Positions 8,990-37,720 of a DNA stretch of 37,720 bases are shown piece after piece. The first letter of the stretch is position 1, and each line of letters starts with the position of its first letter. The notes under the pieces were generated by a model. It saw only the letters and a list, made by a program, of their open reading frames with translations. It ran no database searches and was not told the origin of the DNA. The stretch covers positions 1 through 37,720 of the IMG/VR virus record IMGVR_UViG_3300034374_000293; one strand, given 5' to 3'. The position numbers and the translations under genes were made by a program. This stretch comes from a virus.

Positions 8990-9452
8990 CTTTCTGTTCC
9001 TCCCTAGCATTCTCGGCCCTGATCTCGTCTGCAAGAGCATCGCCATAGACCCGAGCGGTGCCAGAGACCCGGCCAGAGACCCGAGCATTGCCAGAGACCT
9101 GAGCATTGCCACAGACTAGAGCATTGTCAGAGACCCTAGCATTGTCAAAGACCCTAGCATTGTCAAAGACCCAAGCCTCGCCAGAGACCCGAGCATTGTC
9201 AAAGACCCGAGCCTTATCAGAGACCAGAGAATTGCCAAAGACCCAAGCATTGTCATAGACCTGAGCTTTGCCAGAGACTTCAGCTTTGCCATAGACCTGA
9301 GCATTGTCATAGACCAGAGCATTGCCAAGGACCCGAGAATCAGGGCCAACATAAGCTGTATCTGCTACCTTAGCAGTATCAGCAACCCAGCCACCACCGT
9401 TAGAGTGCTTGTGGGCAGGGACAGGCCCGTAACCAAAATCAAAAGTAGTCAT
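8982..9452 (-). CDS. Hexapeptide-repeat left-handed beta-helix protein
   Basis: 156 residues. After a short N-terminus (HSNGGGWVADTAKV) the chain is a run of about 16 six-residue units of the form A-x-V-(S/Y/F)-(D/G)-N, e.g. NAQVYG, NARVSG. Val with Ala four residues on repeats as in left-handed parallel beta-helices of hexapeptide acyltransferases, but no acyltransferase catalytic His is evident. Similar repeat proteins occur in phages and prophages without a known role; a structural, trimeric or surface-modifying function is possible. GGAGG five bases before ATG 9452 fixes the start. The underlying DNA is an 18-nt tandem array. Confidence 0.78.
   Translation of the reverse strand: MTTFDFGYGPVPAHKHSNGGGWVADTAKVADTAYVGPDSRVLGNALVYDNAQVYGKAEVSGKAQVYDNAWVFGNSLVSDKARVFDNARVSGEAWVFDNARVFDNARVSDNALVCGNAQVSGNARVSGRVSGTARVYGDALADEIRAENAREEQKGE
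9055..9347. repeat. 18-nt degenerate tandem repeat array within coding sequence
   Basis: About 16 degenerate copies of an 18-base unit, for example gcattgtcaaagacccga on the plus strand, encode the hexapeptide repeats of the overlapping minus-strand gene. Copies differ at several positions, mostly in the variable residue and codon third positions. The array could expand or contract by recombination or slippage without shifting frame. Confidence 0.85.
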
Positions 9453-10216: not shown

Positions 10217-10293
10217 TTCCTGCCTTTCAGTTGCTGCTCTATCAGTATAGCACGGCCGAGGAATAATGCCAGCAATTGTGCGAATATGCTCAT
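10213..10293 (-). CDS. 26-residue amphipathic/membrane microprotein (candidate)
   Basis: ATG 10293 is overlapped by the upstream stop (ATGA), has GGAG five bases upstream, and the frame ends in a TGA that overlaps the next ATG at 10216. The peptide is MSIFAQLLALFLGRAILIEQ plus a basic tail (QLKGRK): a hydrophobic stretch broken by one Arg, then positive charges. Ribosome site and both overlaps argue it is translated. Function unknown; could insert in the inner membrane. Confidence 0.55.
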   Translation of the reverse strand: MSIFAQLLALFLGRAILIEQQLKGRK

Positions 10294-10439
10294 ATTTTCT
10301 CCAGTTCTTCGATGGTCACAATGTCCTCCGGGTCATAATTAGAAAAGACCCGGCGGACCTCTTGGCGACAGACACCGCAGAGGTCTTCACTCAGCGGCTG
10401 CGTAGGTGGCAATAGTGCGTCGCAAATGGCACAGTGCAT
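10290..10439 (-). CDS. Small zinc-ribbon protein
   Basis: 49 residues with two CxxC knuckles, C3-A-I-C6 and C21-G-V-C24, 14 residues apart, typical of a minimal zinc ribbon; the C-terminal half is acidic (DPEDIVTIEELEK). Such proteins can bind nucleic acid or host RNA polymerase, but no partner is evident. ATG 10439 shares its first base with the upstream stop (TGATG), and its own TGA overlaps the ATG of the following microprotein. Confidence 0.68.
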   Translation of the reverse strand: MHCAICDALLPPTQPLSEDLCGVCRQEVRRVFSNYDPEDIVTIEELEKI

Positions 10440-10633
10440 CAATCTTCCTTCACGTAGACCGGGCGGTCGCCCAGTTGGTTAAGACGGGCAATCATGTTCG
10501 AGTGGTCGATCAGTAGGTGCCTCAATTGTTCTCGTCTGATCTGAACCTGCTTCCCTCTGCCCTTATCTGCGAACAGGTGGGCATCGTGGAACTCGTCGTC
10601 AGTTGTGTACAATTTGAATGTTCCGGGCTTCAA
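10439..10633 (-). CDS. Small protein, unknown; first gene after the structured leader
   Basis: 64 residues, basic middle (KGRGKQVQIRREQLRHLL), with no recognised domain; DNA- or RNA-binding is possible from charge. A TTG start at 10633 has GGAGG six bases upstream, and no ATG fits in frame. It follows the CCCTTAG-rich hairpin leader and a candidate promoter, so it probably heads a separate leftward transcription unit. Confidence 0.62.
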   Translation of the reverse strand: MKPGTFKLYTTDDEFHDAHLFADKGRGKQVQIRREQLRHLLIDHSNMIARLNQLGDRPVYVKED

Positions 10634-10640
10634 TATTGTC

Positions 10641-10737
10641 CTCCCTTAGTTTACCCTTAGGTAACCCTTAGTCCTACATAGAGTATATATCCTCTATTGA
10701 GGGACTAAGGGTTACCCTTAGGATACAAAGTGTATCC
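10641..10737. promoter_or_regulatory. CCCTTAG-rich leader with nested inverted repeats
   Basis: Five copies of CCCTTAG or its complement (10643-10649, 10654-10660, 10665-10671, 10705-10711, 10715-10721). A perfect 15-bp inverted repeat, GGTAACCCTTAGTCC at 10660-10674 with its complement at 10702-10716, encloses an inner ATAGAG/CTCTAT repeat. A 17-bp palindrome spans 10705-10721 and a GGATACA/TGTATCC hairpin 10721-10737. Overlapping arms allow alternative pairings in RNA. On the minus strand it forms the 5' leader of the 64-residue gene. Confidence 0.75.
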
Positions 10738-10746
10738 TCTATAGTA

Positions 10747-10776
10747 TATATATGGTGATGAATTTTCAGATTTCAA
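10747..10776 (-). promoter_or_regulatory. Candidate leftward sigma-70 promoter
   Basis: On the minus strand, TTGAAA (10776-10771) is separated by 18 bases from TATATA (10752-10747) in an AT-rich stretch. The -35 overlaps the stop codon of the preceding gene. Transcription would start just upstream of the CCCTTAG hairpin leader. Moderately good match; not proven. Confidence 0.5.
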
Positions 10777-10946
10777 GGGGTCTCCAGATATTTTTTTTCG
10801 TATTCCTCGGCGCACCGTTGGGCCATGGTCTGAATAATCCGCTGGCGCTTGTAGTTTGCCAGCAGGTTCTCAGGCGAGCCAATGGGGTGCAGTTGTAGTT
10901 GTTTCTTGATGTGCAACAGGGCGCACGTTAGCTGATGGTCTGTCAT
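10773..10946 (-). CDS. Small protein, unknown
   Basis: 57 residues, helical and rich in Gln, Lys and Arg (LHIKKQLQLHP, YKRQRIIQTMAQRCAEEYEKKYLE). No family recognised. ATG 10946 is chosen over a longer frame because AAGGAG lies eight bases upstream and the ATG overlaps the upstream stop (ATGA). The gene ends at the candidate promoter and hairpin leader, so it likely closes the first leftward transcription block. Confidence 0.62.
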   Translation of the reverse strand: MTDHQLTCALLHIKKQLQLHPIGSPENLLANYKRQRIIQTMAQRCAEEYEKKYLETP

Positions 10947-11110
10947 TCGTCTAGCTCCTTCGGTATGCATCCCCAGCCGTCGCACAATTGGCACGTCCGG
11001 ATTGATTGTCTAGGGCCATATGGGGTCTGTTTGTCATAGTCTACTACCCCGTCGCCTTGGCATTCGGGGCATTCGTGCCAAGCGATATTCTCTGATTTGT
11101 ATTTTTGCAT
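10943..11110 (-). CDS. DnaJ-type zinc-finger small protein
   Basis: 55 residues with two CxxCxGxG-like elements, C14-P-E-C17-Q-G-D-G and C40-Q-L-C43-D-G-W-G, the repeat of the cysteine-rich domain of DnaJ; two repeats make one zinc site. No J domain is present. In phages, stand-alone CR-type fingers are found as adaptors or zinc-binding small proteins with unknown targets. ATG 11110 follows the upstream stop by four bases; no clear ribosome site. A longer frame to 11296 overlaps the GP88-like gene and is rejected. Confidence 0.68.
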   Translation of the reverse strand: MQKYKSENIAWHECPECQGDGVVDYDKQTPYGPRQSIRTCQLCDGWGCIPKELDE

Positions 11111-11114
11111 GGGT

Positions 11115-11744: not shown

Positions 11745-11899
11745 GATAGGATCCATTCTTTGAATGTTTTCGGGAATTGTTTATCTGCTACGCATTGTAC
11801 ATAGATTGTGTACTCTTGCCAAGCCTTGGGCGGAGCGTCAGGGTGCGCATGCTTTTGCAGCGCGATAAACCGCCGAATTGACGCAGTGGTTTTGAACAT
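11741..11899 (-). CDS. Small basic protein, unknown
   Basis: 52 residues, aromatic and basic (FKTTASIRRFIALQKHAHP, AWQEYTIY, KTFKEWILS). No recognised domain. AAGGAAAG lies a few bases before ATG 11899. The gene follows the 56-bp nested inverted repeat and precedes the GP88-like gene with an ATGA overlap. A longer frame to 11974 runs through the inverted repeat and is not preferred. Confidence 0.62.
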   Translation of the reverse strand: MFKTTASIRRFIALQKHAHPDAPPKAWQEYTIYVQCVADKQFPKTFKEWILS

Positions 11900-11913
11900 T
11901 GTCTTTCCTTTCA

Positions 11914-11969
11914 GGTTAACACGCTGGAACGGGCGACCATTGCTGGCCGCCCGCTCGGACGTGTTAACC
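11914..11969. repeat. 56-bp nested inverted repeat between two leftward genes
   Basis: Outer arms GGTTAACACG (11914-11923) and CGTGTTAACC (11960-11969) are perfect inverted copies. Inside them a GC-rich stem CGGGCGACCA / TGGCCGCCCG (nine of ten paired) has loop ttgc. The stop codon of the 64-residue gene falls within one outer arm. No long T-run follows on the minus strand, so it is more likely an attenuator, RNA processing or stability element, or a protein site than a simple terminator. Confidence 0.75.
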
Positions 11970-12158
11970 CGCAAAATTCCACAACATTTTTGCGGGCGAT
12001 TTCCGTTCGATATAAACCGAACGCAACCCGGCGTGTACCGCGAAGAATGTCTTTCCGGTTTTCATCCCGTATCGTTTCTTCGCGGCCCGTTTCCGGATTA
12101 GTCCCCACGAAAAGCGGTAACCGGTGGTTCCGTCAGTTAGCTTTGTACGTTTAAACAT
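11964..12158 (-). CDS. First leftward gene: small basic protein, unknown
   Basis: 64 residues, very basic and aromatic (MFKRTKLTDGTTGYRFSWGLIRKRAAKKRY, then KTGKTFF, IERKSPAKMLWNFAG). As the first gene after the divergent control region it is probably expressed first and may act on the host or on the control region itself; this is inference from position. AAGGA lies about eight bases before ATG 12158, and the TATAAT-type leftward promoter is about 35 bases upstream. No domain recognised. Confidence 0.68.
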   Translation of the reverse strand: MFKRTKLTDGTTGYRFSWGLIRKRAAKKRYGMKTGKTFFAVHAGLRSVYIERKSPAKMLWNFAG

Positions 12159-12192: not shown

Positions 12193-12228
12193 ATTATACC
12201 CGGAATTGTGGCAACATTGTGACAATGT
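12193..12228 (-). promoter_or_regulatory. Leftward promoter with overlapping palindromic operator
   Basis: On the minus strand a perfect TATAAT (12198-12193) has a weak -35 (CACAAT at 17-base spacing). The -35 area is covered by the palindrome ACATTGT-g-ACAATGT (12214-12228), a likely operator. The half-site shares CATTG with the iterons near 12,640, so one protein may bind both. Confidence 0.6.
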
Positions 12229-12634
12229 GCATCCAATTTTGCATATCTGCTATGCGCTTGTGTCTATTGACACGGCAAATCTGCATAGCTCAGGGGTCCA
12301 GCTATGCGCTCAGTACATGGCCTAGGGTCGCCCGTGAGTGCCCTTGTCGCATGTCCCGGCTAGGTACATACCTGAAAACATAGATCGCGCTCTATGGCGC
12401 TCTATGGCCGTTTTAGAGGCATATGCGCTTTTTGCATGGCTACGTTGGCTACTCAATAGTTGGCAACAAAATAGTTACGAAACCGGAACAATTGCATGGA
12501 CCAATTGTTTACATATCAACAATTTGATATCTAACTAACGCACTCACACGCACTTTAGAATTTTTCTAAACTGTCACACCATTGCCACGATCGAATACGT
12601 CAGCAACATTGACCCAATATTGGCGTTCCCAGGG

Positions 12635-12693
12635 CAACATTGGGACAACATTGCTGACCTATTGGCCCAACATTGGGACAACATTGCTGACCT
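12635..12693. repeat. Two 26-bp direct repeats (33-bp period), CAACATTG iterons
   Basis: Identical 26-base copies at 12635-12660 and 12668-12693 are separated by seven bases; each contains CAACATTG and ACAACATTG. A further GCAACATTG occurs at 12603-12611. Near them, GTCAGCAA (12600-12607) is the inverse of TTGCTGAC within each copy. Iteron-like spacing fits a protein-binding array for replication or transcription. Confidence 0.8.
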
Positions 12694-36860: not shown

Positions 36861-37283
36861 CTAGCTAAGTTCAATCTGCTTAGCTTTCTTTTCTTCCGGA
36901 ATATCCCGCCTGAGCCGAATGCTTAAAATGCCGTCTTCGAGCTTTGCTTCGACAACATTAACATGCTCGCCCAGAAGAAACATTTTCTTGAACGGGCGAA
37001 ACGCTATGCCAGCGTAGATCACATTGGCAATATTGTCGTCCTTTTTAACACCGTTAGAGACGACAGACAGAACGTCCTCCTTCACCTCAACGGCGATGTC
37101 CTCTTTGCCAAACCCAGCGACAGCCATCTTAATTTCGAAGCTGTCTTCCCCCAGCTTGATCAAACTATGCGGAGGAAAGTTCTGGTTGGCAGACATCACT
37201 TCTGCCACTTTTTGCATATTGTCAAAAAGGCGCTCGAATCCAAGGGCGGAATCGGACAGAGTAGGAAACATCGAAAGAGTCAT
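36861..37283 (-). CDS. hsp20: Small heat-shock protein, Hsp20/IbpA type
   Basis: 140 residues. N-terminus MTLSMFPTLSDSALGFERLFDNM is the bacterial IbpA-like start; the alpha-crystallin domain (SFEIKMAVAGFGKEDIAVEVKEDVLSVVSNG..., YAGIAFRPFKKMFLLGEHV..VEAKLEDGILSIRLRR) is complete; the C-terminal tail has an IEL in place of the I-x-I/V anchor. Holds unfolding proteins, perhaps assisting virion assembly. GGGGAG before ATG 37283 is preferred to a longer frame. Last gene of the leftward arm, 79 bases after the oxygenase. Confidence 0.9.
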   Translation of the reverse strand: MTLSMFPTLSDSALGFERLFDNMQKVAEVMSANQNFPPHSLIKLGEDSFEIKMAVAGFGKEDIAVEVKEDVLSVVSNGVKKDDNIANVIYAGIAFRPFKKMFLLGEHVNVVEAKLEDGILSIRLRRDIPEEKKAKQIELS

Positions 37284-37362
37284 GGTTCTCCCCTTTGGGC
37301 AAGAAGTTATGAGGCCCGACATGGCACCTCAAAATAAGTTTACCACATAACTACGCTACTGT

Positions 37363-37720
37363 CTAGCGGAAAGGAGGACCGACTGCCCAACCGGTGAGGC
37401 TATACCGGGTCCCGCTAGTAACCTCCGTAACTCGGTGGTAGTAGTACGAAGGAAACACAATGAAGCAACCGGGTGTCTCGAAGGCAGTTTCCTTGATCAC
37501 CCGCTTGCGATAAGGGGCCGAGGGGCTGCCCCAACTAAACTGAAACTCCCCTCCTTCGAAGTCCTGATTCAGAACCAGATTGAACGTCAGCTTGCGCATC
37601 GGATCACCGGGCAGCATATCTATATGCCACCCGTACTTCTGACCGGGACCATACTTCGACAGCTGTAGGTTCTCGATCCCCGAGATGTCGAAGTTCCAGT
37701 CCTTGTTCGCTACCCGCATC
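37363..37720 (-). CDS. 2OG-Fe(II) oxygenase, C-terminal part (starts at 381 across the join)
   Basis: Reads leftward from the window end; joined to the part at 1-381 it makes a 182-residue enzyme. Counted in the joined protein: H96-x-D98 (WHIDM), the distal His H159 (YYYHRVTEV) and R169 (SGTRYSLTGW) that binds 2-oxoglutarate, so all iron and cosubstrate ligands are present. This is a compact single-domain prolyl-4-hydroxylase-like fold. Bases 37531-37720 repeat the first 190 bases. Confidence 0.88.
   Translation of the reverse strand, partial: MRVANKDWNFDISGIENLQLSKYGPGQKYGWHIDMLPGDPMRKLTFNLVLNQDFEGGEFQFSWGSPSAPYRKRVIKETAFETPGCFIVFPSYYYHRVTEVTSGTRYSLTGWAVGPPFR
37531..37720. repeat. Terminal redundancy, right copy
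   Basis: Second copy of bases 1-190, differing at 37630 (C) and 37681 (C). Read in the oxygenase frame, the differences are GGG versus GGA (Gly) and TCG versus TCT (Ser), both silent. That pattern fits natural variants in a phage population joined in one assembly more than sequencing error. Confidence 0.9.

Follow-up and report, generated by a model that had tools for sequence, protein, structure and literature searches.

A candidate DNA operator array with changing repeat words at an internal promoter of replication genes in a cobavirus-like marine phage

Why should a phage crowd five copies of a seven-base word, in both orientations, between an internal promoter and the first gene of a replication unit, and does this DNA act as RNA once transcribed or as double-stranded DNA? 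Considering the folding of the leader, the position of its repeats, and the corresponding sites in related phages, we favor a double-stranded DNA operator array that acts in cis at the internal promoter of a replication-gene unit in what appears to be a virulent-type, cobavirus-like podovirus, a reading drawn from sequence comparison to which we assign a probability of roughly 55%. The feature itself is real, its layout is conserved, and it is a known kind of element with an unusual turnover of words.

The window, meaning the whole stretch of 37,720 bp analyzed here, ends in direct terminal repeats of 190 bp (positions 1 to 190 and 37531 to 37720) that are 99% identical, so the 37.7-kb record is probably a complete phage genome. 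Its source is a marine virus that infects bacteria. Replication genes on the minus strand encode a primase/helicase, a PolA-type polymerase, a Gp2.5-like single-strand binding protein, and a Cas4-type exonuclease, with MazG encoded among them. The same strand carries a B12-type ribonucleotide reductase that shares 77 to 78% identity with its counterparts in Roseobacter phages CRP-3 and CRP-212, and terminase and portal are encoded on the plus strand. Gp88 shares 49% identity with Gp88 of cobavirus CRP-4. Cobaviruses have two gene arms running in opposite directions (Bischoff et al. 2019, PMC6775973), and the window has in common with them these opposed arms, the B12-type ribonucleotide reductase, ThyX, primase/helicase, and PolA. 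The portal, however, is closer to those of podoviruses outside the cobaviruses; combined with the cobavirus-like replication arm, these similarities mark the genome as a mosaic. Elsewhere in the genome, 18-bp tandem repeats at 9036 to 9395 encode a hexapeptide-repeat protein, and a small cysteine-rich open reading frame at 10943 to 11112 on the minus strand, containing CPECQGDG and CQLCDGWG, resembles by eye a DnaJ zinc finger.

The repeats and their promoter occupy positions 10641 to 10776. CCCTTAG starts at 10643, 10654, 10665, and 10715 on the plus strand and at 10705 on the minus strand, confirming the five copies in 79 bp counted in an earlier sequence-only reading of this locus, where 3.4 would be expected in the entire window. 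The heptamers are spaced by 11, 11, and 10 bp, about one helical turn, and the first three form a direct repeat of CTAAGGG on the minus strand (10643 to 10671) with 11-bp spacing. The larger elements described in that reading are also present: the 15-bp inverted repeat is exact (arms at 10660 to 10674 and 10702 to 10716, loop of 27 nt), the 17-bp palindrome at 10705 to 10721 consists of two heptamers around one base, giving 8-bp arms, and the further hairpin at 10720 to 10738 is an 8-bp inverted repeat, AGGATACA/TGTATCCT, with a 3-nt spacer, just past the predicted start and kept in the related locus L014. An inner inverted repeat, ATAGAG-N8-CTCTAT (10678 to 10697), has 9-bp arms in L014. As also described, the last CTAAGGG runs into a ribosome-binding site, the minus-strand GGGAGG at 10646 to 10641, which shares its GGG with the heptamer and lies 6 nt upstream of the TTG codon that opens a gene for a 64-amino-acid protein. 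The array contains 17 repeated and 32 inverted 7-mers, versus 1.9 and 6.4 in shuffled sequences, and a genome scan ranks it first for both inverted 7-mers and GC-corrected folding energy. Heptamers, inverted repeat, palindrome, and hairpin together are far beyond chance. The genome holds no second cluster of the array words, and no tRNA or terminator features were found at this position. The second strongest foldable region after GC correction, at 11841 to 12040 on the minus strand, spans two short early open reading frames.

Upstream of these repeats, on the minus strand, lies the internal promoter proposed in the sequence-only reading, and comparison with relatives upholds it. The -35 element TTGAAA (10771 to 10776) sits within CCCCTTGAAA, of which CCCCTTGAAAT is kept in relatives with differing neighboring sequence, and the -10 region TATATATA (10745 to 10752), which includes TATATA, aligns with TATATA or TATAAT in those relatives. 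From the -10 spacing, transcription is predicted to start at about 10739 to 10741. The pattern occurs once in the window. In the window's own group the promoter reads CCCCTTGAAAT followed by TATATA, and L018, L120, L127, L128, and CRP-4 have a plain sigma70-type promoter; host RNA polymerase likely uses the promoter throughout the relatives. In L004 and L005, a hairpin with a run of T's, resembling an intrinsic terminator, lies directly upstream, so the promoter there would start a separate unit.

Alphaproteobacterial heat shock (RpoH) promoters have the form CTTG-N17-CYTATNT, and the promoters of L014 and L115 also fit this form. The TTG of RpoH promoters is conserved (PMC3441632), but the final T of the -10 box is often missing from sigma70 promoters in alphaproteobacteria (PMC8407463), so sequence does not reveal which sigma factor is used: the L014 and L115 promoters match the RpoH form and a sigma70 form lacking the T at -7 equally well. 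The exact promoter pattern was found in 41 stretches of viral contigs, some of them in other phage groups and ahead of other genes, and in 29 scattered places in 257 billion bases of genomes, about the number expected by chance. The first open reading frames downstream of those 29 genome matches, listed mechanically and judged by eye, included no evident heat shock gene. Loci L171, L172, L178, L180, L187, L194, L198, L199, L203, and L205, from other phages, carry CCCCTTGAAAT...CCTATATATA before other genes, and by a rough comparison of collection sizes the pattern appears more frequent per base in viral contigs than in genomes of bacteria. Possibly, CCCCTTGAAAT...CCTATATATA is a heat shock-type promoter used by phages. 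Of interest beside such a promoter, the window encodes an Hsp20-type small heat shock protein at 36861 to 37322 on the minus strand.

In the sequence-only reading, the leader was proposed to switch ribosome access through mutually exclusive hairpins. The minus-strand transcript contains four CTAAGGG heptamers, one of them overlapping the ribosome site, and a single CCCTTAG, so only one CTAAGGG can be paired at a time. Forcing the single CCCUUAG onto the first, second, third, or fourth CUAAGGG gave equilibrium energies of -36.2, -52.3, -35.7, and -39.4 kcal/mol. Each copy can indeed pair, as proposed, but the alternatives are 13 to 16 kcal/mol worse, and the 15-bp stem strongly dominates. In the ensemble, the bases of the GGGAGG are largely free of pairing (0.5 to 0.99 unpaired per base); given this open site and the forced-pairing energies, a switch would have no near-equal second state. 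The heptamer overlapping the ribosome site is degenerate (CTAAGGA) in the nearest relative, L014. The search for covariation suggested in the same reading, carried out as nine pairwise comparisons of close relatives, returned 0 compensatory changes, 3 one-sided changes, and 26 broken pairs. Homologous loci lacking compensatory changes and an upstream start had been named as evidence against the leader; the relatives lack the former, but they retain the promoter. On the folding energies and the lack of covariation, we reject the ribosome-access switch as very improbable. A short-lived cotranscriptional hairpin is possible.

Searches with neighboring proteins brought together about 150 loci. One layout recurs in about 20 related leaders, which fall into 12 sequence groups and include that of the isolate CRP-4: a host-type promoter comes first, the repeats begin at or close to the start site, and replication-arm genes follow, usually with a gene for a zinc-ribbon-like protein. 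Cobavirus CRP-4 thus itself has a leader analogous to that of the window; a search of the main text of PMC6775973 gave no mention of promoters, hairpins, or palindromes. The repeat sequences, in contrast to the layout, are almost wholly different between relatives. Loci L001 to L003 carry sequence identical to the window's (L001 only in part), and L013 and L014 are 87% identical across the leader. In L018, L004, L005, L102 to L106, L162, L110, L111, and L115 to L117, a homologue of the 64-amino-acid protein (54 to 73% identity) and a promoter in the same place accompany unrelated repeats. The first gene differs in the more distant L120, L127, L128, and L140 and in CRP-4 with L153 and L156; L138, L163, and L170 belong to the set less clearly. 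No confident alignment between the groups is possible. Most leaders have far more inverted 7-mers than shuffled sequences, and many also have direct 7-mers in excess; L163 has inverted repeats and no direct repeats.

Many of these leaders contain palindromes that are perfect and have no loop, for example CAATTGTGATCACAATTG, GATACAATATTGTATC, and TACTCTATAGAGTA. A palindrome of at least 8 bp centered 3 to 9 bp past the -10 box occurs in 8 of the 12 groups, the window's group being counted through L014, versus 0.59 expected. None of 20,000 simulations reached this number, a result that overstates certainty, as the interval was set once the sequences had been viewed and the groups lack full independence; the excess is nonetheless large. 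The window's own start-site palindrome is only 6 bp (CTATAG), and CRP-4, L163, L138, and L170 have none. In most groups with a start-site palindrome, a second copy or near-copy lies at 52 to 69 bp; in L110, L111, L120, L128, L004, and L005 it follows 50 to 65 bp downstream of the first. This recurrence suggests paired operators, between which a DNA loop is only a possibility.

These palindromes bear directly on another use of the leader as RNA, in which stable 5' hairpins protect the replication mRNA, undergo RNase III cutting, or bind a protein in antitermination or translational control. Such a leader would be expected to fold strongly, as several groups do (z of -5.2 to -7), and in many relatives a long nested hairpin lies close to the predicted 5' end; very long perfect stems occur in L103 and in L140, where the stem reaches 22 bp. 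However, L153, L116, L120, and L138 fold weakly, and sense and antisense strands fold equally well overall. In the window, the minus-strand leader has a minimum free energy of -52.3 kcal/mol (z of -5.2) and the plus strand folds as well (z of -4.95), so folding by itself is not evidence for RNA. A palindrome without a loop cannot form a local RNA hairpin, and one centered 3 to 9 bp past the -10 box lies about half upstream of the predicted start, so the start-site palindromes would be only half transcribed. The imperfect stems, instead of an excess of G·U, have 16 A·C and 8 G·U mismatches (counts from overlapping stems), opposite to the bias expected from an RNA helix. Between CRP-4 and L153, three direct copies of TACTTAAAG persist and the inverted repeat is lost. 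Rfam gave no match to the array leader at the gathering score, only weak chance hits. Palindromes, their position at the start site, the absence of compensation, and the A·C excess favor double-stranded DNA, and we consider a structured mRNA leader conceivable but doubtful.

Double-stranded DNA could also serve here as a replication origin. Promoter-type origins are known for T7-like phages, and a promoter, AT-rich DNA, and iteron-like repeats would allow host transcription to prime the polymerase or an initiator to bind. The locus is AT rich, it occurs once per genome, and its repeats have helical spacing directly before replication genes. Against an origin, no initiator gene was recognized, GC skew has no turn here separable from gene direction, and the repeats overlie the start site in the manner of operators. 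Another array with 11-bp phasing, at 12604 to 12686, is a competing candidate, and overall an origin at the promoter seems unlikely. In that second array, CAAYATTG words start at 12604, 12615, 12635, 12646, 12668, and 12679, in steps of 11 bp or multiples within a divergent intergenic region; words of this type also occur at 12212 and 10631, CAAYRTTG occurs 12 times in the genome versus 2.2 expected, and relatives L250 and L251 have a CAAYATTG pair 11 bp apart. The CAAYATTG array is a possible early operator or origin.

We therefore return to the DNA operator, which the sequence-only reading had offered as an alternative and which the repeat layout, the start-site palindromes, and the absence of covariation now support better than the ribosome switch. 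No cognate protein was identified, so its mechanism is one that we infer. A dimeric or oligomeric DNA-binding protein, made by the phage or the host, would occupy the repeated half-sites at and after the start, probably cooperatively, and would either block transcription of the replication genes or set its timing; hairpin potential would be a by-product of inverted operator copies. The window's heptamers lie mostly 30 to 100 bp past the start and would act as a downstream roadblock or as auxiliary sites.

The genes behind the promoter offer limited help in naming such a protein. The first (10439 to 10633, minus strand) encodes the 64-amino-acid protein, whose homologues in relatives are 53 to 81% identical; it matched nothing in Pfam or PHROGs, and as a candidate regulator its predicted structure was of too low confidence to use (pLDDT of 52). 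The second (10290 to 10442, minus strand) encodes the 50-amino-acid zinc-ribbon-like protein (CxxC...CxxC), with weak matches to zinc ribbons, including a double zinc ribbon, and no structural relative. Its gene lies within 900 bp downstream in almost every leader whose downstream sequence is long enough and was not found downstream in L163 and L170. As the source of specificity it is an unlikely candidate, being almost the same in L111 and L115 despite the partly different repeats of these two loci. Pfam and PHROG searches of the window's proteins revealed no repressor or helix-turn-helix protein, and several small uncharacterized proteins remain. Several observations weigh against an operator: the first gene behind the promoter varies, the zinc-ribbon protein changes too little to account for changing repeats, the perfect stem of L140 exceeds normal half-sites, and with its short start-site palindrome the window's assignment leans on its relatives.

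Known systems resemble parts of this arrangement. As in the OR and OL arrays of lambda, repeated palindromic sites cover the start region of an early or replication promoter in many of the related leaders, and site sequence varies among related phages while the layout stays; unlike lambda, the window has no recognized repressor, integrase, or lysogeny module, and sites of its type lie mainly over and after the start, with binding predicted. The ribbon-helix-helix repressors omega of pSM19035 and Arc of P22 use arrays of heptads or half-sites. Heptads of such repressors are also described in PMC9499535. Like these arrays, the window has words of 7 to 8 bp, direct and inverted, near a promoter, but omega heptads are contiguous and of other sequence, and no ribbon-helix-helix protein was recognized in this phage. 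HK022 put, a conserved RNA sequence that acts on RNA polymerase, likewise places a pair of hairpins immediately behind an early phage promoter; the array, in contrast, conserves neither sequence nor pairing. An inverted repeat after a CTTGAAA...CYTATAT promoter also recalls CIRCE/HrcA combined with alphaproteobacterial RpoH promoters, but the CIRCE element (TTAGCACTC-N9-GAGTGCTAA) has no match in the window with up to 3 mismatches, and this identity was rejected. Hairpin promoters for an N4-type virion RNA polymerase were also set aside: the N4 polymerase is a giant enzyme, and the longest open reading frame listed, 1,056 amino acids, is far too short.

If the operator reading is true, cobavirus-like phages, which are marine and globally distributed, would control their replication genes at a point that a text search of the main cobavirus paper (PMC6775973) did not reveal. 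Words differ wholesale between phages whose neighboring proteins are 65 to 90% identical. One idea, speculative and on balance improbable, is that operator words replaced wholesale within a fixed layout reflect rapid evolution of an operator or immunity-like specificity system among virulent-type marine podoviruses, one that has a coevolving small regulator and may exclude or tolerate related phages. Comparing relatives offers a simple means of distinguishing DNA operators from RNA leaders. Operators that change while their layout stays would provide a natural series for following the coevolution of regulator and site, and they would raise the question of why a phage without recognizable lysogeny genes needs changing operators.
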